NCBI GenBank assembly: GCA_038049695.1 | Contig: CP142452.1 | Location: 92,821,501-92,885,500, forward strand | Direction of reading: 5' to 3' | DNA length: 64,000 nucleotides | Source of the DNA: Cinnamomum chago | Taxonomy: Eukaryota; Streptophyta; Magnoliopsida; Laurales; Lauraceae | Shown here: positions 15,501 to 49,369 of the stretch, piece after piece | How the letters are laid out: every line of letters starts with the position of its first letter | Numbering within the stretch: position 1 is the stretch's first letter | Notes under the pieces: model-generated | The model's input: the letters and a program-made list of their open reading frames with translations, nothing else | Told to the model about the DNA's origin: nothing | The model's database searches: none | Program-made: the position numbers and the translations under genes

Positions 15501-18500
15501 ACAATGATGCTTTGCGACATCTACATTCTCAATAAAAGATCAGTGCCAACCGTGCCAAGTGGAGCGCATATATACAGGAGTTCAGTTTCAGCATTCGCCA
15601 TACTACAGGAAAAGATAACTTGATAGCTAATGCACTCAGTCGACGAAAACATTTGTTGACAACCATGTCTGTTAGTGTGTCAGGTTTTGACCAACTCAAG
15701 CTAGATTACGAGGATGATCCAGACTTTGGTTCTATCTATGCAGACCTCAATAATGGTGGTATGGGTAAGCATCCTCACTATAGCATTCATGATGATTTTT
15801 TGTTTAAAGATACACAACTTTGTCTTCCTGCCACATCCATTCGTGAATATGTTGTCCGAGAGTTGCATTCAGGAGGAAGTAGTGGTCATTTGGGACGCGA
15901 CAAAACTCTTGCTCTTGTCAGCGATAGATATTATTGGCCCCGAATGAAGCCTACCATTATTCGCATTTGCGAACGATGTAGGACATGCCAACTAGCCAAA
16001 TGTAATAAGAAGAACACTGGACTTTATCAACCTTTGCATGTTCCTCATACTCCATGGGAAGACATTAGCATGGATTTTGTGCTAGGTTTGCCAATGACTC
16101 AAAGAAAAGTTTATTCTATTTTTGTTGTCATTGATCGCTTTTCAAAAATGGCACATTTTATTCCATGTCCTTCCACTAGTGATGCCTAAAAGGTCGCAAA
16201 ACTCTTTTTATGGCCTTCCAAAGACAATTGTTTCGGATCGAGAAACCAAATTCATGAGTTATTTTTGAAAGACCTTATGGATGTTGTCCAATACCAAGCT
16301 CAAATTCTCTACAGCTTACCGCCCTCAAACTGACGGCCAAACCAAAATGCTAAACCGAAGTCTTGGACAGTTGTTACGATGCCTTGTTCGTGATCACATC
16401 ACAACTTGGGATCAAGCATTACCTATGGCTGAGTTTGCCTACAATAATTCGGTCAATCGGTCTACTGGTACTTCTCCATTTAAAGTTGTAACAGGGGTTC
16501 GACCACGACTACCTGTTGATCTTGTCCCTTTGCGGGTAGATGCCCGGATAAGTGCGGATGCTGAAAGTTTTTTCACCACATGCAACAAGTGCTCATGGTC
16601 CATATCCGTCCAGAACGTATGCCTCCAGGCGCTTATAAAAAGTTGCATCCACGAAATGCTGGGCCATACAAGATTCTCAAAAAAATTGGTTCTAATGCTT
16701 ATGTGCTTGATCTACCATCCAATTTAGGAGTCAATTCTACCTTCAACGTAGAGGATCTTACACTCTACCGAGGTCATGACAATGATGGTGAAACTGAAGA
16801 GCAGACTATTGCTCTCCCTTCGAATCTTCCCCATGTTGACGAGATTGTTGATGTGCTTGATGATCAGATTGTTTCCACTCATCAAAGAGGTTTTCAAAAG
16901 TTCTATGTCCGCTGGAAGAATCGCCCTCTCCGATGCTACATGGATCGCTGCAACAGATTTTCAACGCTTGAATCCAGATCTTTACAAGCGCTATCAGGCG
17001 ATTAACTGGCCGGAGTCGAGTTCTTTCAAGCCTGGGAGAGTTGATGCAGCCCGACAGAAGACTAGGGCCCGCAGGCCCCCTCGATGGATCATCTAATGGG
17101 GTCCACATGATTCCTGATTCAATCAAGGATCCCTATCCATCTAAATTAGTACTATCAATTAGTTACTTAAATAGAATTGCTTTCTAAAATTCTAATTTGA
17201 TTAGGAAAAGGTATGTTACTCATTCCAATATTATTGTTTTTATCATGCTTATTCAATCAATAAACCATCGTAAGTTATTCTGGAGTATATAGTTTTGAGT
17301 GTTCTTTGTGTGGAATCCCTTCGTTGGATTCGACCAACCTCATATGAGAGGTTGGCCTACTCGATCGAAGGTCCGGGGCTGCGCCACTCTACCTTTTTGG
17401 AGTCATCACCATTGGCAGCCCGTGGAGTCATCACTTGTGGAGGGAGAATGCTTAATGAGATGCACTGTATTTGAGTGAGAAAAGACAAATCTTCATCGAA
17501 TGCATCAATGAGAGAATACAAGGGACTTAATAGAGGACGGGATGACAATCCTGCCTATTAGGGATCCACATCTAGAAAACCTTGAGGAAGATTTGCTAAA
17601 CTAAGAATGTAGACCAAGGAAATCTTCTTGGAAATTTGCTTGCTAAAAAATAGATACAGTTGTATTACACAGGACCATGGGCTAGGTCCAATGAGCTACT
17701 CATCTATGGCTTGGCCCAATGGGCTAGGATGGCCTACTACAGCATAGGCATTTATTTGTTAAATAGAATCCTCTTTCATCTCTCTAATTCATTAAATGTA
17801 AATCAACTTCAACTATCTCGCTAGACCTCGGACATAAGTATTTTCTAAACTAGGAATGCAAATTGAAAAAATCTTCTTGAAGTTTGCTACTCTAGGACTA
17901 ACTGTGAGAGTTTTTTGAAATTTTGCTACTAAGTAGATATTTTACAGTTAGCTGACCAAGGACCATGGGCTAGGTCCAATGAGCCAGTCATCTATGGGTT
18001 TGCCCCACTATGGTTAGGCCTCCTTTTGTAGCCATTTAGGCTCATGATGCACTTAAGCTACATCAATTGTTGTTCAACATTTCTATATTGTTATAACTGA
18101 TATAAAGGAAAAGTATCACAAACTCACAGGTTTAACAATTTAGAAGGAGCAGCACGCAGAATGGCCAATGCCTCCTTCCAACCCCACTGACGTTCAGATA
18201 ATGGTAGAAGACGCTGCAAAACAGATAAGCGCCATTCCCAATCTTCAATAAAATATTTAGCATTCAAAATTCTCCACTCCAAGGCCTGTTTTCCAGCAGT
18301 TGCTATATCACTGTTCAACATCTGCTCCAGTTCAAGCCCCACAGACGGTAAATTGTGACGCAATATGTCCAACAGTAGTCCAGTAAACGAAACTACCATT
18401 CTATTTCCCCCTTCACATGAACTAAAACGATCCGGTTGTTCCCAAGCAGAAGAAATGCATGATGACTCAGAATAGCTGCTGGATGAGGGACAATGCGCCA

Positions 18501-21500
18501 TATTTGCAGAGATGTCATCTATATGCAAAAGTGAGATGATGATGCTCACAATAAATATCTGCATCATTGACAAAGTTCATTGCTAAGTGAATTGAAAACA
18601 GACAGTTGTTAGAGAACAAAAGATTTTAGAACCATAGCAGCAAAATATTGAGGTCACATGAAGAACATTGCTATAAGGCTTTTTTTAAAATGATGTGATA
18701 AACTGGGGCCATGGGAGAGATCAGAATGATGAATCAAAATACTACCAACAAGCAAAACAGCCTTCCCCAGCTCGAAACAAGAATTTTAACCCCACTATAG
18801 ACACAATCAAAAAGGGGGTGAAAAGTAGTAGTTAGGAACATCAGACTTGAAATTCATGTGACATGTAACACAGGATAAGGTATCACTATCCAGCAATACT
18901 TCATACAATGGCCAGCATCCCACTGACTATCGTAGTTCTACAAGGAAATAGAACTGCCAAGGATCAGGAATATGAACCTTTTTTGCCAATCACAAAGAAA
19001 AGTGTAATCGATGGAGCAAAACTTACATAATCTCTAGAGATAAATAACAAATACTAAATGACAATTGATCAGCCAATCTACCACTTCCTTGGCGCGGATA
19101 ATTCACCTAAAAAGATTCAAATCAGGGAAACTAAAAGAAGTGACTGCTTTTTCATTAACAGTTTGATTCCACTATCAAAAAAGTATCATGACCCAGTTCA
19201 ACCTACTTTCCAATCAACAAAATGCATGGATGAATCATCTTACAATCCCAAGAAATCTCTTCGAAAGGCTTAAATATTTAATCCAACAACATCGTCCAAA
19301 TTTCCACTTTAATTTGAGTTTGGAATGCAAGGGAAAAATCATCACATTGGAAACGATTAAAATTTTAAAACAACCTTCTGGAGGGTATTTCTTTTCGCTT
19401 CAATTTAACTTGTGAGTACTTTTTTAAAGATCTCAACAAAATGTACAATGGTAATTCTATTTGTTGATTTGAAGAAACATTATAGAAGGAAGACAAATTA
19501 GAAACGTGTTCGAAAGATGGTGCTCCACCATTCGAGGATCAAGTGAGATTAAATTCTATTTCAAAATAAAATCGAGGTGCCTGTATTCCTTTCCAAACAA
19601 ATGAAGGGCATTCTTGTCAATGTTATTCAAAGTTACCTTAGGGGTCGTTTGTCTTTTATGCGTGGGATATGTAAATACAATTTACACATGTAAAAGACGA
19701 ATATTCAAATTTTAAGTATGTAACGTTTACACATGTGTTTCTTTTTACAACGTTTGTCTAATAACACTATTTTCGCATCATGTACACAAGTGATTCATTT
19801 TTCTATGTTTTTGTTTGGTTAAAGAAATAAGAGTTTATAGTCTGATGGTTAAGAAAAATAGTATGATTATTAATATTTCTATTAATTAATATTTATTTCA
19901 ATATTATTTTAATTCATTATTCAATTTGCATAAAACTTAACCCATGCATCTCACCAGCTTTATGCCAATATTAATCGATTATAGAAAGTTCTTAAAATGA
20001 GTACTTTATTGCTAAGTCCAATTATATTAAAAGTATCACAAATTTATTATGGTTAGATAAAATTGCATTTATACATTATTTTTTAATGGTACCATAGTGC
20101 TATATATTATACATTCTTCCTTTTCTCTTACATTCATTAATACATATTTAAATATTTTTAAAGTAATACAATAATAAATAATTTTAGAAAAATCATTAAG
20201 ATATTGGAAGAAAATCTAAAAGGAGAAGAGAAGATATAGAATCAAATTTTGAAAGAATAAACCTACATAGTAAATAGAGAGGTTACCTTTATAAAAGGGG
20301 ATGAGATGTGGGAGGATTTTCATTCATAGGTTTCATCAGTCTTTATGCATATGTTATTATTATTTTGTAAATGTGTTGGAGGGGGGTTTCGAACCTAGAA
20401 CATCTTTGATGGAAATGCCTCTTTTATTATTATTTTTCTAAATGCGTTAGGGGGGGTTTCGAACCCAAAAACTCTTTGACGGAAACTACCCCAAAACTAA
20501 ACCGTCCGCCTCCAACGGGTATTCTTTGAAATCAGATGTGCTTTGGTATTCTCTTTTCCCACCTGAATAGGTGTTCAAATCTTAGTGTGAAAATGGACTC
20601 ATTTTCACACCATTTACACATCTGATTTACACACAAGATGCATAAATGGTTGAAGACAAACATTACTGTTGCTTAAATATTACGCATATTCACCATTTAC
20701 ATATGTAAATGGGTGCATCGTTTGTTTGAACCCAGTGAAGTATGTAAATGGGGTTTGATGCATAACCATTATGCATCTCATGCTCCTTTACAGCATTTTA
20801 CGCACACATGCGTAAATGGCAGTGTAAAAATGGTGTGAAAATGGGCTCTTTTTCAGCACAAAATTTTATCATCTCTCTAGGTGATCCTCATTTACGCACT
20901 ACGTACAAAATGGGGTACGCTACAGTGAATTCAATGTCCACTTTACCCAGTCCTTTTTTTCCAATTGTTTTTATTTTTGTGAGGCCCTAAATAAAAATCC
21001 TAACCATTTATCTACTTTAGAAGGCAAAAACGGCCAGGGGTAAAATTTCAGTGGTTGATTCATCATGAATTTTGAGATATTTTTGAAAAAGTACAGATCC
21101 TAAATCACATTTTTGAAAATGAAAACACATCCCATGCCAGTCTATTTTATTCAATTTTTAATGCCTATGGGGCCCCAAATCATGATCCAAACCGTCCATC
21201 CTCTTTAAAAGGTCACAAATGGCCAGCGGATCGAATTTCATCCATTGATACGTCAAAATGGGGTACGCTACAGTGAATTCAATGTCCACTTTACCCAGTC
21301 CTTTTTTTCCAATTGTTTTTATTTTTGTGAGGCCCTAAATCAAAATCCTAACCATTTATCTACTTTAGAAGGCAAAAACGGCCAGGGGTCAAATTTCAGT
21401 GGTTGATTCATCATGAATTTTGAGATATTTTTGAAAAAGTCCAGATCCTAAATCACATTTTTGAAAATGTAAACACATCCCATGCCAGTCTATTTTATTC

Positions 21501-24500
21501 AATTTTTAATGCCTATGGGGCCCCAAATCATGATCCAAACCGTCCATCCTCTTTAAAAGGTCACAAATGGCCAGCGGATCGAATTTCATCCATTGATACG
21601 TCAAAGATTTTGAGATATTTGTGAAAAAGTCCAGACCCTAAAATCTACAGGCCCCATTTTCACGATCCGGACCGTTCAACCTCTTAAGAATGCCAAAAAT
21701 GGCTAGGGGATCAAATCCCATGACATGAATCATCATGGATTTCATAAATTTTGTGACAAACGATGAACTATTGGATGTACTCAAATTCACATGTGAAGAA
21801 ATGTGAAGATGACAAAAATTGGAATGTGTTTCACATGTGACTCGTTTGCATATGTAAATGAATCACATGTAATGGTTATGCATGATTCCCATTTATGCAT
21901 CACAAGCATAAAGAGACAAATGACGCCTTACCTAATTTAGACTTTATAATGACAAAACCTTAGCACAAACCAAATTACAGCTGGAAGATATAATCGGGAT
22001 TTTCTAACAACCCATGTGCCCTAAAATTAGGGAAACTTGTGATACAAAGAGAGGAACGAGTGACTTCATTGCCGTCACTTCCAGTTTCCTTCACGGATGA
22101 CTATAAAAGATTATGGAAGATTTTTGTGACCCTTCCATCTTCCTTCACTGATTCCTCAGTGTAATACCCCAGACCTCGATTCAGGGGCTAGAATATTTTT
22201 AATATTTATATATTTAATTTCCTTGATTTACTGTATTTATATATTTAATTTCACTGATTCCTCTAGTATATCTTGGATATTAAAATTTTGGACCCTTAGG
22301 GTTAAGCCAAATTTTTAGATCTGAGATGAACCTTTGTGGGATTTTCTTTTGTAAATATAACTGGGTACAACCCATTAGTTCTAACCCATAGAAGTTATCA
22401 TATTATGCCACGGAGATGGGACCCATGTCTTGATAAATTTTGGAGTTGTCGCATGACGTAAATAAATAGACTCTAGTGCATGAATCCCAATAGGAAGAGA
22501 ATCGTGCAAACAGGTCCAGAACAAAGAAGTATTTTGACTTCTATTTCAACTCTATTTGTAAGTACTCAATGTGTTTGAAAGGAGAGAAACCCCCATGCCT
22601 TCACCACACCGACTGATAAGTGATTAAATGTTTACAATTTAAGCCCTAATATTTTATTTATCGTGTGCTAGTCCATTGTTATTTTATTTGTTTTTACATT
22701 GTCTTGTTATTTTTGTAAGGAAAAGTCAAAAGAAGCCAAAAGAGAGAATTTCAGCAAAAGAGTTACTTGAGAGATTGTTGGTGACTTGGCGTGAAGGAGG
22801 GAAGCTTTAAGATCAGATTTCAGCAGGAGGAGACATTCAAAAGTAGGGTCCACCATTGATAAAAAAATTGCACGCGTCCAAAGTGGTCCCATCATGTGTT
22901 CCTTGTTTGAAACAAGATTTTTAGAATCAGATTTGGGAAAGTCGAAGCCAAAGATGGACATCCCACTCCATAGAATCTTCCATCATGTGCAACTTTTGGG
23001 ATTTTTTGGAAAGATCTCCCTCCCAAGTCATGATGTCATCTTTGAGAGAACTTCAAGGAGCCTAAAAGGAAAGAAGTGCACACCAAGACATTCAAAGTGG
23101 CAAGAGAATCTCCTATAATGTCTAGTTGTGTCCTAACTAAGTTTTCTTGAAAGCCAAGCTAGAGGTCTACACATAAGGAAACAAGAGCCTAAAAAGGAGG
23201 GATCTCTTTACTAAAGAAAGCTTTTCAAAAAGCATAAAAGGAGAACCAAACGGGGATACTCGACCACCACAAACCAAACCAAACCAAGCCTTTTCCCACT
23301 AGGTGGGGTCGGCTATATGGATTTGACGACGCCAATCAAATCTGTTTAGGACCATGTCCTCCGTTAGATCCATGTAGGCAAGGTCATGTTTAATAGTTTC
23401 TTTCCAACTTCTCTTGGGTCTCCCTCTCCCTATCCTACTCCGGGCAATCTCCATGCTTTCACACCTTTTAACAGGTGCCTCCGTTGGGCGCCTTCTAACA
23501 TGGCCGAACCATCTCAGTCGATTTTCTCTCATTTTATCTTTAATCGGTGCTATTCCTACTTTGCCCCTAATCTCCTCATTCCTGATCCCATCTCTCCTTG
23601 TGATCCCGCACATCCATCTTAGCATTCTCATCTCCGCAACTTCCATCTTCTTAACATGATTATGCTTTACTGCCCAACACTCTGATCCATATAACAACGC
23701 TGGACGTACCGCCACCTTATAATACTCTCCTTTAACCTTGAGGGAGACTTTCCGATCACACAAGACCCCCAAAGCACTCCATCTGGTCCACCCGGCCTGA
23801 ATCCTGTGACTTACATCAGTATCAATCTCTCCATCATGTTGCACCATAAATCCAAAGTACCTAAAGTTTTCTTTTTCTACAATCTTTTGTGTGCCCAAAC
23901 TTACTTCTAAGTTACCAAGTGTCCTACTTTGACTAAACTTGCATTCCATATATTCCCATATACTCGACCACCACAAAAAAAAAAAAAAAAAAAAAAAAAA
24001 GACACCCAAAACCCTAGCAGCCGTCCAACATTAATTCTGGGAGCTTTTTGGAGCAAAGGAGAAAAGGAAGAAGCCGAAGGCCATGCCTTCATCACCATCA
24101 TCTTCTAGAGTTCTTCCTATGACTTTTATTTTCCATGTTATTATTCATTGCAAACATGAGTAGCTAAACGTTTAGGGCTAGGGTGTAATTGAAACCCTAG
24201 CCTAATTTTATGTAGTTCCTTTTGGAATTCCTTAATTGAGAATTCAGTTTTACTGGATGAGTTTCTAAACCATGCTTTGATTTGATGAGTTGTGTATATG
24301 CCATGCCAACCATGCCATGTTCAATTGAATTTAAGATTAGCTAACTTGTTTTTTATTGATCTTGATGTTTAAGCATCTAGGGTTTAGAATCCATGAACAA
24401 TCTAGGTATATGCCATGCCTAGACTCACGCATTTATCATTCCCATTATTTTTGTGCATCATGCGTGTATTGACTAGGACATATGACACGGTTAGTTCTTG

Positions 24501-27500
24501 CAACTTGATGAACAATTCATGTTGTATGCCACTCGTGAATTAGCTTAAAGGGAATCATAATCTAGATACATATGCCATGGTCTAGATTGATGTCACCAAT
24601 AAATCTAGTTTTGATTAAGGAATAATAAGGAACATGCATTGGATAAGGTTTGGGGAGTTGATGAAACCCTCGTCCGTTCATTCTCACCATTTTCAATCCT
24701 AGTAGTATTCTTATGTGTTTGGTTACTTTTCATTGTGCTTTTGATTTATTTTAATATTTTTAACTTCTTGTTCCAGTAATTTCATTCAGCCAACTTTTCA
24801 TCCATTTAATATTCTGAATTCATAGTTATTTTCAACATTGTTTTATCACTAGTCTTCGTAGGATCGACCTCGTACTTACAATTCATCATACTACATAGTG
24901 ATCTTGTGCCCTTGCGAGTTTAAGTTGTGTGCATATTAAGTAGCTTATTTCTAGGTTACTTGGTGCGTACCCACCAACCCTCTCTCCCTCATTACTTCTT
25001 TACTTCCCTCCTCTACCCCTCATACTCCCACATCTTAGAAGCCCTAGACTACAAAAGTAGAAGGAGAAAGAAGAGGATCAGTAGTCTAAGAGCCTAGTGA
25101 AAGAATTTTCTCCTCCCTCAGGCGAATTGGGCAAACCTAGTCGATAAAAGGTGAGTGGAATCCTTATCTACTTGTGATGAATCCTAGATCCTGATGTTTT
25201 GCCTTTTGTATTCCTTGCTACGCAATAGTACGCATTCAAGATAATTTTGCTTCTTGGATTCGCTACAGGGTTCATAATGGTCATCATGTTAAATTTTGGC
25301 ATGATGAGTGGTGCGGGCAGTTTGTTTTGAAAAAGCAATTCCCAAACTTATTTTTGATGGATTGGAGGCAAGAGGCTTTTGTTGCTGAAAATTTTAGTGG
25401 TTCTAGTGGAGGAGTAATTTGGAATTTTTTCTTTTCGAAGAAACCTGATTGACATCGAAATTTCTGATTTTGTCGTTTTGCTTGGCATCCTTGATAAGGT
25501 ATATGTGTCGGTTGGCAGAGATGATGAAAGGATTTGGAAACCAGGTGTAAAAGGTCAGTTTTTAGTCAAGTCTTTTTATATGTTTTGGATGACAGTTCAG
25601 GTCAAGGGAAAGGTTGGCAATCTTTTTGGGATCCCTATGTTCCGCCAAGGGTTTTGGTGTTTTGTTGGTTGGCAAGAAAGCATAAAATTCTGACTATAGA
25701 CAAGCTGCAAAGAAGGAAGCATTTTTTAGTAAATGGGTGTCCTATGCGTTTAAAGGATGGGGACACGACGCATCATTAATTAATTCATTGTCAGTTTGCT
25801 AATAAAGTTTGGATGGCTATTTTAAATTTCTTTGACGTGAGTTGGGTGATGCCTAATAATGTGGAGGATTGTTTTCTTCAATGGCGTTTACGAAAGAAGT
25901 TTGTTCGTGGCAATATTTTGTGGAAGTTAGTTGCTTATGCGACGGTTTAGAAATTGTGTTTGGAGAGTGGCGCAACCCGGATCTGCGATCGAAGCGTTAG
26001 ATCAATCTCCCGAGGGATTGATCGAATCCAAGATGGATTCCAGTCACTAGGGCACAAACAAAACCATGAAGCCAAGTATGGAACTCACGATGAACTCAGA
26101 AATCTATTTACTGATTGAAATTAAGCATGATAAAAAAACAATAGATCTCTTCTGTTTATATAGAACATTTTGTTTCTAAAACTAATCATAAAATTGGAAA
26201 TAGTAACATACCTAGTCCTAATCAAATTAGAAGTTTAGAAAGCAATTCCTATTAAGCAACTATTTGATATTACAAATTTAGATGGATAGGGATCCCTGAT
26301 TGAATCAGGAATCATGTGGACCCCATTAGATGATTCATCAAGGGGGCTTATGGGCCCTAGTCTTCTGTCGGGCTGCATCAACTCTCCCAGGCTTGAAAGA
26401 ACTCGACGGATCGCCTGATAACGCTCATAAAGATCTGGATTCAAGCGTTGAAAATATGTTCCAGTGATCCATGTAGCATCGGAGAGGGCGATTCTTCCGG
26501 CGAACAGAACTTTTGAAAACCTCATTGACGAGTGGAAACAATTTGATCATCAAGCACATCAATAATCTCGTCAACAGGTGGAAGATTCAAAGGGAGAGCA
26601 ATAGTCTGCTCTTCAGTTTCACCATCATTGTCATGACCTCGGTAGAGTGTAAGATCCTATACGTTGAAGGTAGAATTGACTCCTAAATCGGATGGTAGAT
26701 CAAGCACATAAGCATTGGAACCAATCTTTTTGAGAACCTTGTATGGACCAGCATTTCGTGGATACAACTTTTTATAAGCTCCTGGAGGCATACGTTCTGG
26801 ACGGATACGGACCATGACCATATCTCCTTCAGCAAATTCAAGAAATCGATGACGCTTGTCTGCTTGTTGTTTATAAGTGGCATTACTAGCAGATATATGG
26901 CGCAGGACTTCATTGTGCACTTGTTGCATGTGGTGAAAAAACTTTCAGCATCCGCACTTATACGGGCATCTATCGGCAAAGGGACAAGATCAACAAGTAG
27001 TCGTGGTCGAACCCCTGTAACAGCTTCAAATGGAGAAGTACCAGTAGACCGATTGACCGAATTATTATAGGAAAACTCAGCCATAGGTAATGCTTGATCC
27101 CAAGTTGTGATGTGATCACGAACAAGGCATCGTAACAACTGTCCAAGACTTCGGTTTACCACTTCGGTTTGGCCGTCAATTTGAGGGTGGTAAGCTGTAG
27201 AGAATTTGAGCTTGGTATTGGACAACATCCATAAAGTCTTTCAAAAATAACTCATGAATTTGGTTTCTCGATCCGAAACAAGTCTTTGGAAGGCCATGTA
27301 GACGTACAACTTCTTTGAAAAAGAGCTTTGCAACCTTGTAGGCATCACTAGTGGAAGTACATGGAATAAAATGTGCCATTTTTGAAAAGCGATCAACGAC
27401 AACAAAAATAGAATCAACTTTACTTTGAGTCATTGGCAAACCTAGCACAAAATACATGCTAATGTCTTCCCATGGAGTATGAGGAACAGGCAAAGGTTGA

Positions 27501-30500
27501 TAAAGTCCAGTGTTCTTCTTATTACCTTTGGCTAGTTGGCATGTCCTACATCGTTCGCAAATGCGAATAATGGTAGGCTTCATTCGGGGCCAATAATATC
27601 TATCGCTGACAAGAGCAAGAGTTTTGTCGCATGCCACTACATCCTCCCAAATGCAACTCTCGGACAACATATTCACGAACGGATGTGGCAGGAAGACAGA
27701 GTTCTGTACCTTTAAACAAAAAATCATCATGAATGCTACAGTGAGGATGCTTACCCATATCACCATTGCTGAGGTCTGCATAGATAGAACCAAAGTCAGG
27801 ATCATCCTCATAATCTAGCTTGAGTTGGTCAAAACCTGGTACACTAACAGACATGGTTGTCAACAAATGTTTTCGTCGACTGAGTACATTAGCTATCAAG
27901 TTATCTTTTCCTGCAGTATGGCGAATGCTGAAACTGAACTCCTGTATATATGCGCTCCACTTGGCACGGTTGGCACTGATCTTTTGTTGAGAATGTAGAT
28001 GTCGCAAAGCATCATTGTCTGAGTAAAGAACAAACTCGTTGCCAATCAAGTAATGTCTCCAATGACGAGGTGATTGTACAACGGCATAGAGTTCCAAATC
28101 ATCATAAGAATACTTCTTCTTGGCATCAGAAAGTTTCTCGCTGAAAAATGCAATCGGATGTCTCTCTTGACTAAGAACACCTCCAATGCCAACATTTGAG
28201 GCATCACTAGCTATTTCGAAGACCTTGTCAAAATTTGGAATTTGTAAAACTAGTGTCGCTATGATTTTACGCTTTATTTCTTCAAAGGCTCTAGTGGCCG
28301 AACTAGTCCACTTAAATTCACCATTTTTCATGCAATTTGTGATTGGAGCCATGATACTGCTGAAATTTCAAATGAATCTCTTATAAAAGTTTGCAACACC
28401 ATGAAAACTTCGAACTTCAGTGAGTGTAGTAGGAATGGGCCGCCAGTCCATAATTGATTTGACCTTCTCAGGGTCCATTTTAATTCCTTGTGCCGATACA
28501 ACATATCCCAAGAAGATAACAGAATCACTCATAAAAGTGCACTTCTTGAGATTAATATAAAAATGCTCTCGGCGAAGGAGTTGGCAAATTTTATCCAGAT
28601 GTTGAAGATGTTCTGCTTTCGTCCTGCTGTAGATTAGAATATCGTCGAAATAAACGATGACAAACTTTCCAATAGAAGGCTACAATAACTGTGTCATGAC
28701 CCACATAAAAGTACTAGGGGCATTGGTGAGCCCGAAGGGCATAACCATCCATTCATAAAGACCGTCTTTGATCTTAAATGCAGTCTTCCATTCATCACCT
28801 AGCCTTATACAGATTTGATGATAACCACTTCGCAAATCAATTTTAGAGAAAATACATGCACCAGTCATCAAATCTAGCATATCATCTAATCTGGGGATTG
28901 GGAAGCGGTACTTTACCGTGATTTTATTGATTTCACGACTCTCCACGCACATACGCCAACTTCTGTCTTTCTTTGGAGTGAGAAGTGTAGGTACTCCACA
29001 AAGACTGAGGCTTTCCCTGATATATCCCTTTTATAAAAGATCATCAACTTGTCTTCTTAATTCTTTATGCTCCATAGGACTCATCCGGTATGCAGGCAAA
29101 TTTGGCAAGGAATCGCCTGGGACAAGATCAATGGCATGCTGGATGTCACGTAATGGAGGTAGCTCCTTAGGCAACTCATCTGGAACTAGATCAGCAAACT
29201 TCTTCAGAAGTGGCTCTACTTCTTGTGGGACAGATGTATCAAGAAATTCTTCTGGAATTTGCCTAGCAATCAATGCATACATGACGCCCTGTTCTTTGCT
29301 TTCATCTTCAAACTTCCGCATGGTCAATATAGGAAGTACTGGAGCTGTATCAGATGTGGAGGACGACGATTTAGAGGGCAATGGAAGCAACCTAATCTTA
29401 CCTCTTAAAAGAATAAGTATTGTGCTCATGATCTGTGATGCCTTTAAGTTTCTTTAACCATGGTCGTCCAAAGAGATTATGTGTAACGTTCATTGGAATG
29501 ACGTCACAACGAATTGTATCTTCATAATTGCCGACTCTGAAAGGGACGACACATTGCTTACGGACAGAAATGGAGTAATTGTTGACCCATGCAACTTTAT
29601 AAGGTTTTGGATGCCTCTCGGTAGGTAGCTTGCGTTTCTCGACTGCCTATTGAGAAATAACATTTATCGTGCTACCACCATCAATGATCATGTTACAAGA
29701 CTTGCCCTTGCAATTGACTCGTGACCGGAAAATGGATGCATGATTCCAGTCTTCATTTTCTTCCATCGCATCAGCTACTAGGAGACAACGATCAAGGAAA
29801 AGCAGTGGGGTGCCGTCATCAGCTTCTGTAACTTGGAATTGATCCACTGTGGTTTCATTTTGAAGCTCTGCATTGAACGACTCTACTTCTATTTCCTCAT
29901 CATCTTCTGGCTCATTAGTAGCATATAAATTTCTATGGGGACACTCAGCTGCATGATGTCCATTTTGTTTGCAGGCATGACAAATGATCTCTCTTATCTA
30001 TCCTTCCACGTGCACGGTTACCATTCTGATTCTGCTGCACCCGCTGATTTGGCTGTGGCAAAACTTGCCTCTGCTGAATGGCTTGAAGTGGCCTATGTGG
30101 TGCTTGCTAAAATGGTTTAGGAGGATGAGGATGAGGACGAAAACCTTATGTCTGAGTACGGTTAAAAGAGGTTCAGATCCTCTTCTAATGGAAGACTCTC
30201 CGACTTGAAAAGTGTTGCGTCTCAGCAACTAAAGTTCATGCTGAGCTTTGCGCGCTTTACAAAATACCTCATCAACTCTGGTATAATCAAACATAGCAAC
30301 TTCCCGTCTGATATCATTGCACAATCCATCTCGATATCGAGTGATAGTGAGACGATCATCTGTTTTCAAATTACAACGAACAATATATTCGCGAAATTTT
30401 TTTGTATATTCTTCCACAGATAAATTGCCTTGCTAGAGAGTAAGATACTCTTGGTGCAGTGTGTCAATGTAATCAGACAGAAGGAAATTGCTTTTAAGCC

Positions 30501-33500
30501 TTTCTTTCATGTTGACCCATTTGGTAATGGGATGTCCCAAAGCAAGTTCATTATTTTCAACACCATACCACCAGATTCTAGCAGGACCCTAAAGTATCAC
30601 CTTCGTAAAGGCTATCCGCTGTTCATCATTCTTGTTATACCAAGCAAAATAGTCTTCCAGGGAATTAAGCCAATCAACAAAAACTTTCGGACTAACATCT
30701 CCAGAGAAATCAGCCACATCAATTTTAACTTTCTTAGTGATGTCATCAGTGCGGTATGCAACTATGGGACCCTGGGTGTCTCATTCAGCGAAAAGACGCT
30801 GTACAAAGACACGCATGGATTCACATTGCTCAGGCCTTTCTGTTTGGATGTGTGACTAGTTGTGCAGTAGTGGAAGACCCTTCCTTTGCAACCAACTATG
30901 TACTTTGTATTTCAATAAGTGTAGCCTCTTATGTGTGTAGACGATCCATTACTTCGTCCATATCTTGGCCCAATTTGAACAATTGTTCATCACGTTCCTT
31001 GTCTATGAGCCAATGACTGAGATTGTCACCTCTTCTAGGCATGGCTGAAAAGAGTTTTTTTTTAAAGTGGGCCAGGTCAGGTCTAGACTCAAATCGGGCC
31101 CAAATGGCAGATCAGGCCCAAAACTTAGGGAAGGCCCAACTCAGACTTAGCACGTGAGAGACGGTCTTTTGGTTCTACCTTGGGGTTCGTGCGCAGAGAG
31201 AAAATAAGAGTGGTTGGGTTGTTACCTGTTTCGACTTGAGAACGAGAAACGATGGGAGGAACGAAGATCTGCAGCAGAGATCGATGGGAGGAAGAAGAGA
31301 ACGATGGCTACAAGCAAGGCGGTGGAGTGGCTTGCGATGGAGTTGGATGGCGAGGCGAAGCTTCCCGATAGAGCACATTATCCGTGCAGGTGTGTGCGAC
31401 AAAGTGGAGAAGCGTCGCTACTGGTCGAGCTGACGTCGGTGCAAGGTAGCTTCTGTCGACTTCTTCTTTCTGTTTTGGTTTTTTTTTTTGTTCTGCTTCT
31501 CTCTCGCTACTCTTTTTTTTTTTTTTTTGTTCTCTGTAGGGGTGTAACGGTTCGGTTAACCGATTTTTTTGGGAAAACCGTTAATCGAACCGTAACCGCG
31601 GTTTTCTATCTTTTAAAACCGTAACCGTATCCACAAAAACCGTGGAAAACCAAACCGCGGTTAACCGTATTAGACGGTTCGGTTACGGTTAATAACCGTG
31701 GAAAATTTTATTCATGCACCATTTTCACACCTTCCTGCATGTTCTCTCTCCATTCCATTCCATAACTTGAATTTTAAACAAGGAGCAACACATCTGCACC
31801 GTGTACTACAGTAAACAAGGAGCAACACACCTGCACCGTATACTTTTCCATCCAAAGTCCAAAACTCCAAATCCAAGCCTTTGCTGCTGCCAGGCATCAC
31901 ACCCATATAGTACAAAAGTAACCAGCAATTTTATTCAATCCCGAGTAGAATACACGATTCCAGAAGGAGAAGACCAAAACTATCTTTCTGTACAATGTTC
32001 GAATTCTTACAAAAAAAAAAACCTGAGCCAAAGCAACAGTAGATTCCATCAAGTCAATGAAACCCCTCTACTCAAATGGGACCGAAATAAACCAAAAAGG
32101 AAAGAAGGAGATCGAGAAAGAAGCTGCCGAACAGATTTTGTTCATAATATATGCTTAACCTAAAATCATCACCACCAAACCTGGATCTGGCGAATGAGGC
32201 GAGAGAGAGAGAGAGGTGTCTTTTTCTTCGTGCGTAGAGAGAGAGAGAGGCGAGAAAGGGGATGGCCGGCTGGGATTGGGAGTTGAGAGGAAGAGGCGAG
32301 AGAGAAAGGGGCTAGGGTTACTTTGTTTTGTTACTTACCTACTTATACATAAGAAAATTTTCATTCAGCTCCCTTTTTTTTTTCTTTTATTTGCATAACG
32401 GTACGGTTAACCGTGTGCAGTTAACCGAACCGTATTTTATGGTTCGGTTCGGTTAACCGCCGTGAGTTATTATGGGAAACCTTAACCGAACCGAACTGTG
32501 CAGTTTTTAGATTTCATTAACCGTAATCGTAACCGAACCGTGAAATACGGTTATGTTACACCCCGACCCAAACTAATCATGATTAAGGCTAATTAATTGA
32601 TATTAATGCTAATTAAGCATGGATAAATGGGTTAATGAAGATTGATGACCAAAGAGAGAGAAATTAGTCTCAAATGACGCATTAAGCATAATGAAATGAA
32701 ATTGAGTGGGTTAAAATGAGTATAGACTCAAACAAGATATACTAAGGACTTTTTCGTAAATACGAGTTTTCACGTATTTCGTCAAATACGAGAATTCTTG
32801 ATACCAACGCGTGTATCTCGAATAGTGCGTTAACTTTCATAATAGACGCGACCCCGTTTGACCTCAAAGGGACCAAGTGAAGCTTCATTTGACTCAATAT
32901 GTAATAAAGCTTATTAGGAGGGGTTTTTGGTGTAAGTGAACCTTATAATAGAATGAAATGAATCACTCATTCATTTCTCACTTCAAGCAAAAACCCTAGG
33001 CTCATTCTCTTCTTTTCTCTTTCAATCTCATTCCTCAAGAGAGAAGCTAGGAGTGATCCCAAGTAGTTTGGGAGGAGTGAGTTGAATCTTCATCATCTTC
33101 TCCAAGCTTTTTTTCCCCATTGTTGGAGTGTGGAGCTTGAGAAAGATCTCAAAGTTTCTCTCATTTGAGCTACAAGTAAGTATTTGGAACCCTGATGAGT
33201 TTTCAAGTCATAATGAGTACTTAGGCATGATTTCTAGCACCAATAGCTTATAGATTGTGTATTTTCATGTTTTCATGGGATTAGGGTTTCATTTGGGGGT
33301 TGTAATCCCAAGCCAAGCTAAGTAAAAGAGGGCTTTGAGTTCATTGACTTCAAGAGAGGCAAGTATAAGCATTTCTTGTGATTAGTAGTAATTATTGTAG
33401 CAATGCATAGAGTCTTCTTGGATTTGTGCATTTTACATGGATTTTTGGAGTTGTTTATGGTTTGAGTAAGATTGTTAATGAATGATTAGAAGTGTGGTTT

Positions 33501-36500
33501 GTGAATGGAGGATGTGTGAGGAGGGTCAGGAGGTCCCATTACTATTATATGTTGTGGATGAATAGTGGAGAAGAGAGTGTAGAAGAAGAGAGAAAGAATC
33601 AGATTTTCGGAGTTGAACTCTGGACAGTTCGCTCGAGCGAACATAAAATGCGCTCGAGCGACCAAGGTTCTGTTTCAGAGTGAAATTGTTCTGGACAGTT
33701 CGCTCGAGCGAACTTAAGGTGCGCTCGAGCGACAAACATTCTGTGAGGTGCTCGCTCGAACGAACTTTACTCGCTCGAGCGAACCTGATACAATAACGAA
33801 CATGGACCTGTAAGTGAAAATTTGGCCAATCGATCGGACCAGCGGATTTTGGATTTTGCGTAAACTTGGAGTACTTCTCGTAAGTATGAGTACTCTTTAA
33901 ATTGGTTTTGAGTCTAAACCTCCATGAGTGATAATTATGGGGTCTATTCAATGCACATATTAAATATAAATGTGATGTCCATCAAGAATAACACGTGCAT
34001 TGGAAACCTATAGTTACATCCAAATGGTTGGTTTAGATTGAGTCAGAATTGAGTGAAGTTATAAATAAGTAGTAAGATCTCTCATTATATCGTATGACAC
34101 ATTGTTGGGTCCCAATCTAGTGGGATTGGCACCACCGGTATCCCCTTCTCTTGTTATGGAGAGAATTATTGAAATAAATTGAACGGGTCATTAGAAAGAC
34201 ATTAACCCTTAAGTTGGCACTACATAACTACTGTACTAGAACTCTAAACGAGTTCAATGAATTGATAAATGAATGAATAATCATGCTGCAGCAGATGGAT
34301 TTGGGGGCGCTCCGGAGCTCCGTGGTGATGCTAGTTGTCCCTGGCCAGGACACTAGTAAGTCCCACACATTCCGATCATATCTATGGGTATTGATTGATG
34401 CCTTCCGTTTGGAAGATGAATCCTTCCTTTGGGGGAAGATGGTAAATTAAATGAATCCTTCCTTGAGGGAAGATGGTAAATTAAATAAATCCTTCCTTTG
34501 AGGGAAGGTGGTAATAAAATGAAATAAAATGAAATGAGCGAATGAAAGCTATAATAAGGACTACCTTGTGAACGACTATTGGTTAACTCTTATGGTTATC
34601 TATTCGTCATTATAGACATTATCTGAATTTGTTAGAATTGCAATTATTATTAAATAGATTGAATGAGTTAGTATATGTATTAACATGTGCTATTACTAGA
34701 TTTGTTTATACATTGTTGAACCGTCGTGTTCATTAGTGTTATTGATGGCATTACAGGCCCGATTGCCCCTACCGGTGCGGCAGCAGCGCCAGCGGAGGAG
34801 ACCGTTCCGGTTCCTCCAGGAGGTCTAATCGAATGGAATGGACGAAATGCCATTTGATATCGGCATCCGAGTGCGAGAAAGAACTCTAATATTTTGAGAA
34901 CGTTTAAAACCATTATTTTGTACATTCATTTATGGAATGTAATTAATACTTATTGTATGGTGTTGAATATGCACCGATTGATAAACTTTGATGGAGGTGA
35001 TACATGTATAAGGACTTTATTTTGTATACATGTAAATCATAAATTGATATTTGTCAAGTTTAAATATTTCCGCAAAATTGTGTAATTGACAGGTTTATTG
35101 AGTTTGATAGCCCTTGTGGATTCCGTTTTAACTTCGGTTAATTCGGGGTTTACAGGAGTAAGTATGGGCTCACGGCTCGGGGTTACCGTAATTCGGGCCC
35201 GGGTCGTGACAGGTTATTAACCGCGGTTCGGTTCGGCTAGATGGTTTTTCGGTTTTTTTTTACACCCCTAGTTCTCTGGTATGGGCGACTGCTGGGTGGG
35301 GGTGTGCTGTCGCTGGGAGATGAAGGGAGTGCGCTGGGGTTTCAGATGAGGGAATTAGGGCTCAGAATTTTGGGGATTTGGTTTTCAGTAGGGGTGGACG
35401 GTGGATTAGGGTTTGGGAAGGTAGGATTGGTTGTCGGTATTGCTGGGACGTGGTGGAAGGGGTTTTGGTGGTCTGTTTGGATGGCTTAGGGTTTAGCAGA
35501 ATGTTGGAGCAGAGAGGAGATGGAGAAAAGAAAGGGACGAGTGGACGATGACGAACAAAAGAAGACGATCGTTTCTCCGGCGACCGGATCTGGGCTCGGA
35601 TACCAATTTGGCGCAACCCGGATCTACGATCAAAGCGTTAGATCAATCTCCCGAGGGATCGAATCCAAGATGGTTGAGGAAGTTGTTGAGTCCATTGTTT
35701 GGAGAGTGTCAGAATGGGTTTGCTATAGTAAGGACTTTATTGGTATCTCTTTGGAAGACCTTAATCGGTCTTGGAACCATCCTCCTCCTGGTATTTTAAA
35801 GTTAAACTTTGATGGTAGTTTTGTTCAAAGTGTTCAACGGGGAGGTATTGGTGGCGTCATCAGAGATTGGAATGAAATCATTATTAGAAACTTTTCTGGG
35901 CCGGTGGATTCTTCGGATGCTAAAGAAGCATAGTTGTTTGCACTTCTAATTGGGTGTCGTGAGCTGCGTAGATTTGGATGTCATAATCCTATCCTTGAAG
36001 GTGATTCTTTTTCTTCTATCCAATGGGATTCTGGAATAGCTATTCATCCTTGGAGGCTAGCGGATTGGGTGGAGGAGGTGCAAGATATTTCAAGTCTGTT
36101 GGTGCTTCTTTCCATCATATTTTAAGAGAGGCTAATTCTATGGCGGATGGTTTGGCCAAGGAAGGAATTCTTCGCACTTCTATTTCTTTTGATGTATAAT
36201 GTCTAGTGCTTTCCCTAGTTCGTTGTCTTTTTTTTTTTTTTTTTTGGTTTCTGGTGGAATAAAATTTTATCATTTATCAAAAAAAAAAGATTAGTGATGA
36301 TGATGGAGATTAGACTGAATTTTTTAGTTTTGTATGACTGCTACAGTAACTTTCCCTTCACTGTCGACATGTTTGGGTGTTGAAAGAGCACAAAAATCCC
36401 CTTTTCAGGCCCTAGAAACTTGCCAATTGATGTTCTAAGGTAGATAGGGTCCCTCATGAATGATTCCTACCTATTTTGTCCAAAGATCTGCAAGGAATCA

Positions 36501-39500
36501 CAACAGAATTAAATTCTGTAGAAATTCAGGTCATCTTGGAGTAGATTCACATTTCAGGATATGGGGCCCACATGGGCCACTTGATCAAAGATCAACACCG
36601 ATGGATGGAAACTAGACCCTCGGGTAACCTAAGTGGTATGGGACCAACATGGGTTGGGCCCACTGTCAAACAAGCCCAAACCAGCCCACGCGAGAAGCCT
36701 AGTAGATTTTTCTTCTTAAGTGCAGAATTCTGTAAATTGCAATTTAAGACCTGTTGTTTCTTACTATTTCATCTGGATAAATTTTAGTTATTTTTGTGTC
36801 CTAAAGTTCCCAGAAATCACAAATAGGCCCCTGATAGTTGTTGAATTCAATGACTGAACTATTATGAACCATGTAGTTGAGTTCCAACTGTTTCCGAATT
36901 TACAAATAAGCCCCCGCTATAAACTTTTTTTACAACTAAACCCCCGAGGACTGTTTTCTTCGAGTTCTTTATGTACTGAAAATATATATAAGCCCCTGTT
37001 AAGGTCTGTTTTACATCTAAGAACATCATAAGTTCTATTAATTACATACCAGCCCTGCCCTTTATTTTATTGTGTATATACATCTCCTAAAAGTTACATA
37101 TAAGCCCTTTTAATACACTGTTTCTGTTATTTTCATGAATTCGAAATCTGAAGTTGCGAATATTGTTGATATATACATGCTGAATTTTTGTGTTTCCTTA
37201 TATCATTAATTGTTATTGATATGTTGATGATTGGTACTTGATCATAAAAATTGTATAAAGCAGATGATGCGGGTGTGAAACTAAGAGTTGTTAAAGAATT
37301 TAGGTGATTATAATGTATTTGTTATGTCATTATATAAATATGAAAAATCTCAAGCATACAATGGGCTGGCTACGTCAAGGCTTTTACACATAGATACCAA
37401 TGGTGAATCAGAGAGGGGCATAAATAAAAATCTGGATTTATGCGTAAGGGGCAGGTTGCAGGCTAACTTGTTGTATGTGTTGGGGACCAATTGAGAGCAT
37501 GTGGTTTACGGATGAAGGACTTCATATAATATGAGGAATTGAGAACGACCTTGAAGATGTATTTGTACCTTGGACCCTAGACTGCTCAGCACGGTATGGT
37601 AATGACGTCCACCTACCATGGCCTATGACGTTCTAACTATAAGTCATCATTGGGAGGATAATCTCCACGTACTGCCTTGATGATTCAGACCTTTGATGGT
37701 CACCTTGTGATGTGTACAAAGTTTGTTAATGGTACTCCTTGTTCTGTCTTGCTTCCTTTGGGACCGTGTTGCCCCATGCTAAGCAGTTAGGCAGTTGTCC
37801 ATGGGAAAAGACCAATTTAACCTTACCTAAATAAAACTTTCGGACTCAATGCAAATATGTAAAACTCATATGTTACTTGTCTCTTTATGCTATTTTGTTT
37901 ATTTATGGTGAAATACTATACATGTGCTTAAATAGATTTGCAAATCCATTCACTCAGTTTGTTCTGATTTGTGAATTTGCACCAATCCAGGTTAACCAGA
38001 ATGTTGAATTGCTAGAAAATTATAATGAACAAGACATAGGCTTTGGCATGCGTTCTTGAGCAGCGGGTTCACTTAAAAGTTTGAAGAGGATTAGTTCTTT
38101 AATTTCATTTGGACAATGGAGATTTTAGTTTTTTTTTTTTTTTTTTCTCATTTTTTGTGGACTTGTTTAGTTGTTTCAAATTGATTCAAACTTTAAATTA
38201 TTATTCAAAGAATTATTAAGATAGCCCTAAAATATTATTGTTGCTCATTTAATTTGATTTATGATGATGGTGATTGTGATACATTATTAGTCGCACCACG
38301 GAATCCGACAAGCCCCGGGTTCCAGGCCGTGACACTCAGGGAATTCAAAACAATCGATGAAGTATGAGCCATGTCACCATGCATGCTACCGTCTTCACCA
38401 AGTAGGGATTCACTGCCAGCAATTGGAAAAAAAAAAATCAGTAGAACCGATTATTTACAAAGAAAAAAATGATGACCGATCCACAGTTGAGGCTTCATGT
38501 TACACCTTTATGAAGAACAGACACCATTATGGAATGGATTTGGGTGAACAAGAAGAGTTATCACAGAAAATCATAACCCTAGCATACTCCACCATTTCCA
38601 AGTACTTAGATTTCTCGTCAATATCCAAGACAGAAACCCCAGTTACCCAAGAACTAATCAAGATTTATTTCTGAATAGGTCCAATGACTTCAGACCCACA
38701 ATCTGTTATCCGTACTATGTTGTTTGTAAACCTAATCCATCATTAAGGAGTCAAGGACCTTCATGAACACTGCCCGCGAAGATGGTACAATCCAAGTAAG
38801 AACTCCACTGAACGTTTTTTTATGATAACGTGATTAGATCTTGCAACCTTGTGGTTGCGACACTTGTGGTTGCGACACTGAGCACCTTACGATTGATTAA
38901 AGAAGTATTTTACCATAGTTCTGAGAGCCAATCCCCACTGCTGTAAAAAAACCACTCCGGAAGAGTGCCCTCTAGAAATATCAAACCTTGACAGCAAACC
39001 TAGAAAAGAATGGGAAAAAACCCTCTCATGCAGACTTTCAAACCATCCAAATGAAGGTTCTAGGTAATTAAAAGTCTAAGCATGCTCTGAGTGCCCACAA
39101 AAACAACCCAAGTATCACTAGAAATAAAATCAGTCAACCCTATCATTACCAGATAAAGCAATTTGTTGTTGCTTGCCAACAATCTCCCTCAAATCACTAT
39201 CAACTGAGACTTGTTGACACCCTCAAGGAACAACCAGACCTATACCAACATTTACCCGAATCTCATACAGTGGCTAATGCTTCCACTTCATTTGAGTCTA
39301 TGTTGATGTCAGACTCCAAAAGGCTAACCTCAACTCGGCTTTTCATTCCTCCACATACATCACCAGTAGAGTTCACCTCTAGTGGCCCTATCTATGCTGA
39401 ATCTCGAGTACACTTTGCGGAGACTTGATCCTCTTTTTTCTTAAATGTTCAGTGAGACCAGACATAACAGTGCTACTTTCAGAAACAGGAACATTATACC

Positions 39501-42500
39501 TTTTGTTCATTGGAGTCATAATTTTTTCCGCAGTTAAGATCATTAAAAATATTTTACTAGGATTTCATGCGTAGAAAGATTAAGCAATCCTGAAAGGTGC
39601 AGTCAACGATTCAAGAGAATGAACAATCAACAAACCGGCAAAGCCTAAAATATGAAGAAAGAATAGTGATGCATAACAACATTAAAACCAGAGAGAAATT
39701 CTAATACCACCAACCTTACGTGGGGCATTATTGATGGACTCTAAATGATTTTGTAGATCTTTCAAATACCAAACCGCCATTTGGTGAAGTTTATCGTTCT
39801 CATCAGTTACACTCCTTTCCATGGATCCTAAAGCAAGAACAGCTGATTCTAGAGCATATCGCATATGCATAAGCTCAATGTCCTGCATTCTATCAAGATA
39901 AATGGGATATAGACATCAGATGTGACAATATGATGAGAGAAAAACCAGTTTATAACAAATATCAGTGAACAGAACAGTATAAATGCGGAATATTAAAGCT
40001 CATCTGTGCTTCTTATGTTAGAAGACACATCAAAATAGGTACCATCCCCAGGTCTTAGTAGTTCAAGCATGCCATACTATGAAATATGAAGATACAACCT
40101 ACAAATGCCAATAATAATAAAAATAACAAATAAAAAGATATGAATTATATTATAAACTAAAATGAAAAACCCATACTGTTTGTGAAATAGCCGTTTGGAA
40201 TGTAAAATATTTACAGGTTTAAATGCAAATCCGTTCATCTAAATCCTCAAATATGTAACTAGTTAACGATGCAAATTTGAATCTGCAAAGTAATTTCTTG
40301 TTGACCCAAATATGCAGACCTGTGTGCACCACAACTAAAGTTCTATATAAGAAAAGCATGGAAAATATGACACAGCAGACCAATTCATGACACAGAAAAC
40401 ACAGCTGAATACTGTTTCGCAACCAGTAAGCAGAGGATTAGAAAACAGCAGTAACAACAAAAAAATGTTTCACTGTGTTCAGGAATCCCATTAATTTAAC
40501 CCACAGCCTTGGTTGTAAGTAATATTCTGAACCCTATGGGGCCCCTGGATTTGCATAGTCCAATTGTTTCACTGTGTGCGGACTTATGTATGAATTATGT
40601 TTGATTATGAGACATGAAGATTGAAGAAACAGAAGTGAGCTGAGTCTTAAGAAGCCATGGTGCTCTGAACTACATGCGCAATGCGAGGTGACGACTTCGT
40701 ACTTAGGGTCGTGCTGTGGATATGTGATTGTGGATATGTGATTATGGACCTGGGATCAGACTGTGACATGTATTGATGAAGGACAGACCCATGGGTCGAT
40801 CCGCCAATGGGCCCAGTTCATCTGTCTCGACCCAGTCTTTTGAGCCCAGCCCACCTATCAATTAGATATTCTATTTTATTGCATCAAAAATGAATTAGAA
40901 GAAGGAAACTCAAGATCATCTGAGAAAGAAGACCACATCTTACATTTTTATTTTCCTTCCTTTTTTTTCAGTACCACATTTCCAATTCTTACGTGACAAC
41001 AAAAGTGGCATTGAAGGAGGAGATACTGAAGGCATTTGAATCCGCACCTTTTCCAAGCCATCGCAGTAGATGGAAGGGGCTGCATACTAATCAGCTCAAT
41101 AGCATCTTGAAATTTTATCCCAGGAACAACATCAAATAACACCTGCAAAAGATTTCATACCCTCGCTAAAAATCAATAAACGGCAAAAAAAAGAGAGAGA
41201 CTAGCATAAGATTCCGTGAATAAAAATAGATTCCATGATCTCCCAGCTCCAACCAACGCTAATGATATGCAGGCACGGCAACAAGATAAAACAAACAAAA
41301 CTTCATACTAGCGAACACTAAAAAGCATATACATCGTATACAGGTTCAGAACATGATAACGAAAAATAGAAAAGGAAACTAAGGAACTCCACGGGTGACC
41401 TTCACTGAACTCAGCTCTTGCACCCCCTATGTTCCACAACAAAAGTTTTAAACATCTAGTGTCAATGATCACGGATTAGATCACTTGGATCAGTTACATT
41501 TTCAGAAGAGATCGACATTCATTAAAGATCAGCTTACAATTAATGTCAGCCAAATAATCCAATAGCAATACTATTATAAAAAAGGGACTACCAAGTAATA
41601 GTACAACCTCAATGTGCCAAGACCAGTTTTCTGTGTACGGATATTGATAACTAAAATAACTGCAACAATAACAATCAAATCCAACAATCATCCAATGAAG
41701 AAGTCATGTAGTTTTACTATGTAGGATTTGAGAAAGTACATGAAATATGAATTAAGAGTTTCAAATAGGGCAAAACCTAACAGATCCCCAATTTCAATCA
41801 TTCAAGCAACACTATGAGTCAATTCACTCTCATTTCTTTCTATAAAAATATCCCCATCTTTTGATAAAACAAACCATTACATAAGATTCATTCCTGCTTG
41901 TACCATTCAACCAAAAAATTTTAAAAAGATAAAAATTAAAATTAAACCTTTAGCCGTGGAGAATTTAAAAAGAGAAGGTACTGAATTTTCAACTCTAAAG
42001 AAGCGTAGTGGATCGTTTCTAGGTGGTATGAAAGTGCAAATTGGTAAATGGATTTCATTATTCACTTGGGACATCTCAAGTTATCCGATGATGCGTTGAA
42101 GTAGAAAGTTCATACCAATTTTTGGAGGAGCTGAAAAAACTAGTAGTATCCTCTGGCAAGTCTGCTTAAATTCAAAAAAGATGGGGCAGCAAGATGTAAG
42201 CGAAGAGCGCTTCTTGTTTTCTCTTGCCCAACTAGAGTCAACAAAGGAAATCCTAGCTATTAAAGAAGCATGAGATGATTCAATTTTGCACTCCAAACTC
42301 TGTAAGACTTGTCTTAGAGTGTGATTCTTCTAATACCAAGGAAGTTGATAAGGATTAGACAAACCACATGGAAACATCAGTTTATATTGAACGAAATTGT
42401 TGGAGCTCTTCTCTAGAGGTAGATCTTTTGTCATGTCCTTAAGGAACCCAATGGGTAAACGATGCTTTAGCTAAACACTATACTGACAAAGAGGTGCTAT

Positions 42501-49284: not shown

Positions 49285-49294
49285 CGATGGGGCG

Positions 49295-49369
49295 TTAGAG
49301 AATTTGGGTTTTAGGGTCGAGAGGGATCGAAGGCAAAGGGATTTTTGTGTCGAGCGGGATCGAAGGCAT
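49295..49369 (-). CDS. Upstream ORF in the SPG11-like leader (24 codons)
   Basis: ATG at 49369, stop TAA at 49297-49295, ending 10 bp before the main ATG. The peptide holds two copies of PSIPLD, because the DNA repeats CCTTCGATCCC(G/T)CTCGAC. Such short uORFs commonly reduce translation of the main frame. Whether it is in the mature leader depends on the transcription start, which is inferred from the TATA box. Confidence 0.55.
   Translation of the reverse strand: MPSIPLDTKIPLPSIPLDPKTQIL

Follow-up and report, generated by a model that had tools for sequence, protein, structure and literature searches.

A nest of five transposon layers in a large candidate intron of Cinnamomum chago

A stretch of 64,000 nucleotides from the 1.06 Gb genome of Cinnamomum chago (C2:92821501-92885500, hereafter the window; positions below are counted within it) was analysed, and it was confirmed that one candidate intron holds a real nest of transposable elements. 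From the outside in, the nest consists of a solo long terminal repeat (LTR A), a 5'-truncated L1-type long interspersed nuclear element (LINE), a Ty3 retrotransposon, a short hAT element and a further solo LTR (LTR E). A side branch is formed by solo LTR B, inside A, and a truncated RTE LINE inside B. All layers were found at the coordinates listed below when the window sequence was read directly, and the window contains no N bases. The arrangement very probably arose by the stepwise and neutral stacking of insertions in one large intron. The features are given from the outside in, with target site duplications abbreviated as TSDs, and the side branch is placed after LTR A.

22155-22159, no strand: left TSD of LTR A, CTCAG; right copy at 38335-38339.
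22160-38334, plus strand: solo LTR A, TGTAATACCCC...CCGTGACA; own sequence at 22160-22608, 24979-25229 and about 36287-38334 (about 2.75 kb).
22614-24973, plus strand: solo LTR B, TGATAAGTG...GTACCCA; TSD CCGAC at 22609-22613 and CCAAC at 24974-24978; site uninterrupted in the relatives L002, L003, L008 and L039.
23276-23955, minus strand: 5'-truncated RTE LINE of about 680 bp in B; TSD ATACTCGACCACCACAAA; absent in the relative L046.
25235-36288, plus strand: 5'-truncated L1-type LINE with an A-tail; own sequence at 25235-25967 and 35674-36288; no TSD, target loss of about 7-9 bp.
25968-35673, minus strand: degenerate Ty3 retrotransposon, coding on the minus strand; RVT_1 2e-20, RT_RNaseH_2 1e-28, Integrase_H2C2 2.6e-10, SH3_Tf2-1 8e-19.
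25968-26380, minus strand: complete 3' LTR of the Ty3 element, 413 bp; its left end agrees with L045 and its inner end with L050 and L051.
35609-35673, minus strand: 65-bp stub of the Ty3 5' LTR; the junction lacks about 350 bp of the LTR as well as about 35 bp of L1.
31529-31536 and 35271-35278, no strand: TSD of the hAT element, GTTCTCTG, read directly.
31537-35270, no strand: hAT element, TAGGGGTGTAA...TTACACCCCTA; own sequence at 31537-32553 and 35217-35270 (about 1.07 kb).
32554-35211, plus strand: solo LTR E, 2658 bp, TGTTACACCCC...GTCGTGACA; TSD GGTTA at 32549-32553 and 35212-35216.

Each layer is a multi-copy repeat in the genome of C. chago, and the copies used for comparison (labelled L and a number) were other members of each family fetched from that same genome. 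All six nested insertions were found to be missing from family copies that were read at the base level: four copies for B, one for L1, two for Ty3, two for hAT, three for E and one for RTE. In all six cases the two halves of the interrupted element were collinear with uninterrupted members of its family. The order of insertion is established by these uninterrupted copies, which independently support the nesting order that had been claimed in an earlier reading of the sequence alone (the sequence-only reading). Paired TSDs were present at five insertions (A, B, RTE, hAT and E), and together with the uninterrupted copies for the six nested insertions they support stepwise stacking. The earlier claim that TSDs define most layers was borne out for A, hAT, E and RTE, and the duplication of B (CCGAC/CCAAC) was newly identified in the present analysis, but L1 and the Ty3 element lack a flanking duplication. 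Similarly, the six levels announced by the sequence-only reading describe the structure of the nest, but the host intron was counted among them, so that five transposon layers remain; the different classes it named amount to three kinds (LTR, LINE and DNA transposon) spread over these five layers.

The left end of LTR A was matched by one relative (L003) and the right end by seven of the eight fetched. The genome holds 50 matches to this LTR, itself included, and identity to the relatives was 83.4-87.1% in ungapped columns; no other layer has so distant a best relative. TG...CA ends, a 5-bp duplication (with one mismatch in B) and the lack of an internal region were found for A, B and E alike, and these solo LTRs would have originated by LTR-LTR recombination. 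In the first step, an LTR element would have entered the intron and would then have shrunk to solo LTR A.

The bases that flank B are adjacent in the A relatives L002, L003, L008 and L039. B was absent from all four A copies covering the site, and the remaining four of the eight fetched had no match there. At the uninterrupted site, L003 and L008 have CCGAC, L002 has TCGAC and L039 has CCAAC. In the window the letters are CCGAC on the left of B and CCAAC on its right, which delimits B to 22614-24973, with a duplication that differs by one G to A change in a CpG. LTR B was 7.6% different from its nearest relative (ungapped columns). A B-type LTR, L046, lacks the RTE, has nearly identical ends and is flanked by a TSD of its own (CTAAT); it was the one B copy available for comparison, and its site is similar, not letter-identical, to the duplicated sequence. 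The RTE had been described as lying in a second solo LTR with an 18-bp duplication, and this was recovered: ATACTCGACCACCACAAA was read around the element, and its last AAA could also belong to the end of the element or to the A-run. The 39 other scored genome matches of the RTE were 96-97% identical. No Pfam match was obtained for the window copy, which is a partial element. The copy at L063 runs on into L070, and L070 encodes RVT_1; this domain denotes a reverse transcriptase and does not mark the RTE clade, to which we assume that the LINE in B belongs. On this separate branch, solo LTR B would have formed in A and then received the truncated RTE.

The L1 piece at 25235-25967 resumes at 35674-36288, as judged from the relatives L040, L041 and L047. 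Its L1 type was assigned from a zf-RVT match above the Pfam cut-off (5.2e-08), a weak RNase H match (RVT_3, 7e-04, 19.9 bits, below the cut-off of 21.6) and the 3' A-tail; we take zf-RVT and RNase H to be marks of the C-terminus of plant L1 open reading frame 2. The A relative L039 reads straight across the insertion point, and includes about 7-9 bases that are missing from the window. In L003 and L008 the A homology resumes with 67 and 332 unaligned bases in between, respectively, and without an L1 match. L1 is thus absent at the base level in L039, while L002 is ambiguous and four of the eight A copies do not cover the site. At the A/L1 junction, the A side of other copies ends at or before 25229 and the L1 side begins at 25234-25235 or later; none of 40 other genome matches (the best 40 of 78 candidates) crossed it. 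Target-primed reverse transcription would have placed the 5'-truncated L1 in A, at the cost of a few target bases. In the available part of PMC2912911, target-site deletions are noted for 5'-truncated L1 elements in cell culture, with reference to work in HeLa cells; a missing TSD is therefore not odd for an L1, and a TSD is no strict requirement.

The Ty3 element was assigned from its pol order of reverse transcriptase, RNase H and integrase between LTRs, the domains being located on separate open pieces. It was missing from all three L1 copies examined (L040 and L041 at the base level, L047 by match coordinates). The segments 25968-26036 and 35609-35673 were considered as complete short LTRs and rejected, since the LTR of L050 and L051 is longer and ends in GCTGCATCA, as does the left copy in the window. 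Dating of the element by its own LTR pair was dropped because the shared 65 bp are too short. A second, partial copy of the same family is present on the plus strand at 15536-17234, with open reading frames at 15536-16189, 16269-16727 and 16565-17005 (match C2:92838210-92838734, 91%). The sequence-only reading had called the nested element a Ty3 chromovirus. The domains agree with Ty3, but Pfam Chromo was unmatched at E 1 both in 26382-26546 and in the second copy (16565-17005), a chromodomain-like stretch being visible by eye only. The nested Ty3 is therefore likely, at most, to be a chromovirus. Beside its 5' LTR there is what we take, by eye, to be a primer site resembling the complement of initiator tRNA-Met.

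The right Ty3/L1 junction was found to be altered. In L040 and L041, the L1 sequences that flank the element in the window are separated by about 35 bp that the window lacks. Taken with the 65-bp stub, this indicates that the losses at the junction comprise about 350 bp of the LTR, about 35 bp of L1 and the second GAGAG copy that would be expected there. The junction was crossed by none of 39 other matches in the genome (the best 40 of 271 candidates were scored), so that it is private to the window copy as far as was seen. We infer a single deletion at the 5' end after insertion: the Ty3 element would have landed in L1, and a later deletion would have removed most of the 5' LTR, the right TSD and the L1 segment. 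Alternatively, the element could have arrived truncated, as an incomplete cDNA that was captured in L1 by end joining and never had a TSD. The missing right TSD, the short 5' LTR, the loss of L1 bases and a homology of about 1 bp at the junction, seen by eye, fit this explanation. In contrast, the left end coincides with the LTR terminus of L045, as in an integrase-like event, and incomplete second-strand transfer would more readily leave no 5' LTR than a 65-bp stub. Truncated arrival is considered improbable; if it did occur, several different chemistries of integration would be recorded along a single line of insertions in the stack. Insertion followed by deletion is the preferred origin of this layer.

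The hAT element displayed an 8-bp duplication and short terminal inverted repeats. Perfect 8-bp TSDs were found in five of the six fetched relatives (L042, L043, L048, L053 and L054), and the right end of the sixth, L052, was not located by exact string. The element was missing from both Ty3 copies, in which the site reads GGTTCTCTGG (L051) and TGTTCTATGG (L050). Its own sequence amounts to 1.07 kb, and on this length alone it appears to be non-autonomous. The short hAT would have landed in the 5' untranslated region of the Ty3 element. Next to the right TSD, at 35271-35300, the window is without about 20 bp found in the Ty3 relatives L050 and L051.

LTR E was missing from all three hAT copies (L042, L043 and L048). 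The empty site reads AATACGGTTATTAACCGC in the first two, and L048 is the same except for one change. A set of 29 relatives, the best genome matches of E, was fetched (L010-L038). Among the 26 with both ends, the TSD was a perfect 5-bp repeat in 21, matched at four of five positions in two and was mismatched in three; the solo LTR is the usual state among the best matches of this family. A Ty3-type integrase region was found beside L012 and L013, which indicates that LTR E comes from a Ty3 family. Beside L012, SH3_Tf2-1 was above the cut-off and Chromo (E 0.01, 16.2 bits) was below its cut-off of 25.1; beside L013, Integrase_H2C2 was above the cut-off and rve was below its own. Another Ty3-family element would have landed in the hAT and then shrunk to solo LTR E. 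LTR E contains two 55-bp direct repeats at 33619-33744, in each of which the 16-bp palindrome GTTCGCTCGAGCGAAC was seen by eye.

The relative ages of the layers were compared by the terminal branches of the window copies (FastTree; ranges in brackets from 58-60 bootstraps). The branch lengths were 0.069 (0.052-0.076) for A, 0.050 (0.036-0.059) for L1, 0.041 (0.026-0.059) for Ty3, 0.017 (0.008-0.026) for hAT and 0.017 (0.012-0.024) for E, and 0.018 (0.005-0.030) for the side-branch RTE. The relatives in the trees were picked from the best matches and their numbers are uneven (A 8, L1 6, Ty3 5, hAT 6, E 9 of 29, RTE 7). A terminal branch measures the time since the split from the nearest sampled relative and therefore approximates insertion age from above. 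The sequence-only reading had predicted that divergence should fall from the outer to the inner layers, and over all sites this is what the branch lengths do, with overlap between neighbours and a tie between hAT and E. Without CpG-like sites the values were A 0.067, L1 0.050, Ty3 0.053, hAT 0.018 and E 0.018. By gapped search, the best relative was 94% identical for hAT and 95% for E. At a rate of 1.3e-8, used for maize and rice in the available part of PMC3903597, the branches would correspond to about 5 to 1.3 million years, although a maize and rice rate may not suit C. chago.

Several points weigh against stepwise stacking in the order given. The bootstrap ranges of adjacent layers overlap; L1 and Ty3 swap places within error when CpG-like sites are removed (0.050 vs 0.053); hAT and E are tied, also by identity to the best relative (96.5% and 96.2%, ungapped columns). 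The divergence of A comes from its alignable parts, 1024-1985 of 2745 bases per relative, and is hence a lower bound. One relative provides the uninterrupted RTE site, and one (L039) provides the base-level L1 site. No TSD was found for L1 when the window junctions were compared with L039, and none for the Ty3 element. The uninterrupted sites cover the six nested insertions and not LTR A itself, and the support for the assembly is internal to the sequence, not from reads. This last point bears on the explanation that repeats of separate loci were misjoined in assembly and that the nest is not one molecule. Every layer is multi-copy, the kind of sequence prone to misjoins. However, paired TSDs at five insertions, uninterrupted sites at the same base and the lack of N are unlike misjoins, and divergence graded by depth would also be unexpected, which leaves an assembly artefact highly unlikely. 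That the intron received a pre-formed nest, by movement or duplication of the whole unit, is extremely unlikely: an element can be mobilised together with one nested in it, according to the available text of PMC2672092, but LTR A alone borders the intron, with its own TSD, and no other match spans A/L1 (0 of 40) or right Ty3/L1 (0 of 39), with the best 40 candidates scored for each of these two junctions and the searches not extending to A/intron, Ty3/hAT or hAT/E.

The candidate intron spans about 21 kb and lies between two exon-like open stretches of the minus strand, 18127-18576 and 39685-39915. The first of these had one genome match, on C2. Spatacsin, considered as a possible host, was dropped because both Spatacsin_C matches in the genome are on C9 and the host exon is only on C2; the idea that LTR A is shared with a C9 duplicate of the host gene was likewise dropped, the host exon having no second match. 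Pfam searches of three open stretches of the host (18127-18576, 39685-39915 and 43464-43784) were negative, as was a PDB sequence search of two (18127-18576 and 48364-49368). The host may be a plant ZFYVE26-like gene, a guess that none of the searches supports. The host gene is adjoined by a MutS-homologue-like gene, with minus-strand open stretches at 50379-55227 and a TGPNMGGKS motif seen by eye in 53411-53869. Just left of the nest, at 20906-21642, there is a 300-bp direct repeat (99% identical, spacing of 348 bp), and part of a third copy (67 bp, 81%) is also present.

The individual layers resemble known systems. LTRs A, B and E, with both ends, 5-bp duplications and no internal region, differ in nothing notable from solo LTRs formed by LTR-LTR recombination. 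The L1 shares truncation, an A-tail, the lack of a TSD and a small target loss with the 5'-truncated, target-altering L1 elements in the available part of PMC2912911; here, however, the element is an old copy in a plant and the evidence for its target loss comes from a single A relative, L039. As for the nest as a whole, the accessible text of PMC2773423 describes nested insertions in maize and other plants with large genomes, the bottom layer being the oldest. The maize intron nest of that text similarly swells the intron of a conserved gene, by more than 12 kb there as compared with an intron of about 21 kb here, but it comprises two elements, in contrast to five in line and two on a side branch. 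The stacks of the maize adh1 region and of Triticum monococcum 5Am (PMC2672092, available part) also consist of insertions in insertions whose order is read from interruption, and their LTR ages agree with the nesting, as ages follow nesting here. Those stacks are mostly LTR elements, whereas LINE, LTR and hAT elements alternate here within one intron. The description of the nest as unusually clear was judged fair, without quantification: E is enclosed by four elements, and the maximum in Table 1 of that paper, which covers two loci only (160 kb of maize and 215 kb of wheat sequence), is three. Searches of open-access text, in which most hits were judged by title and the opening of the abstract, turned up no deeper intronic nest of mixed kinds, and genome-wide catalogues of nests may well hold deeper ones. 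The locus changes no views on how transposons work. It offers a stratigraphic column in which three kinds of transposon follow one another in fixed order at one place and share one local mutation rate, and such loci can test whether family-based ages agree across LINEs, LTR elements and DNA transposons. The nest is a very clean instance of a structure whose kind is well known, and its depth and mixture of kinds are notable.

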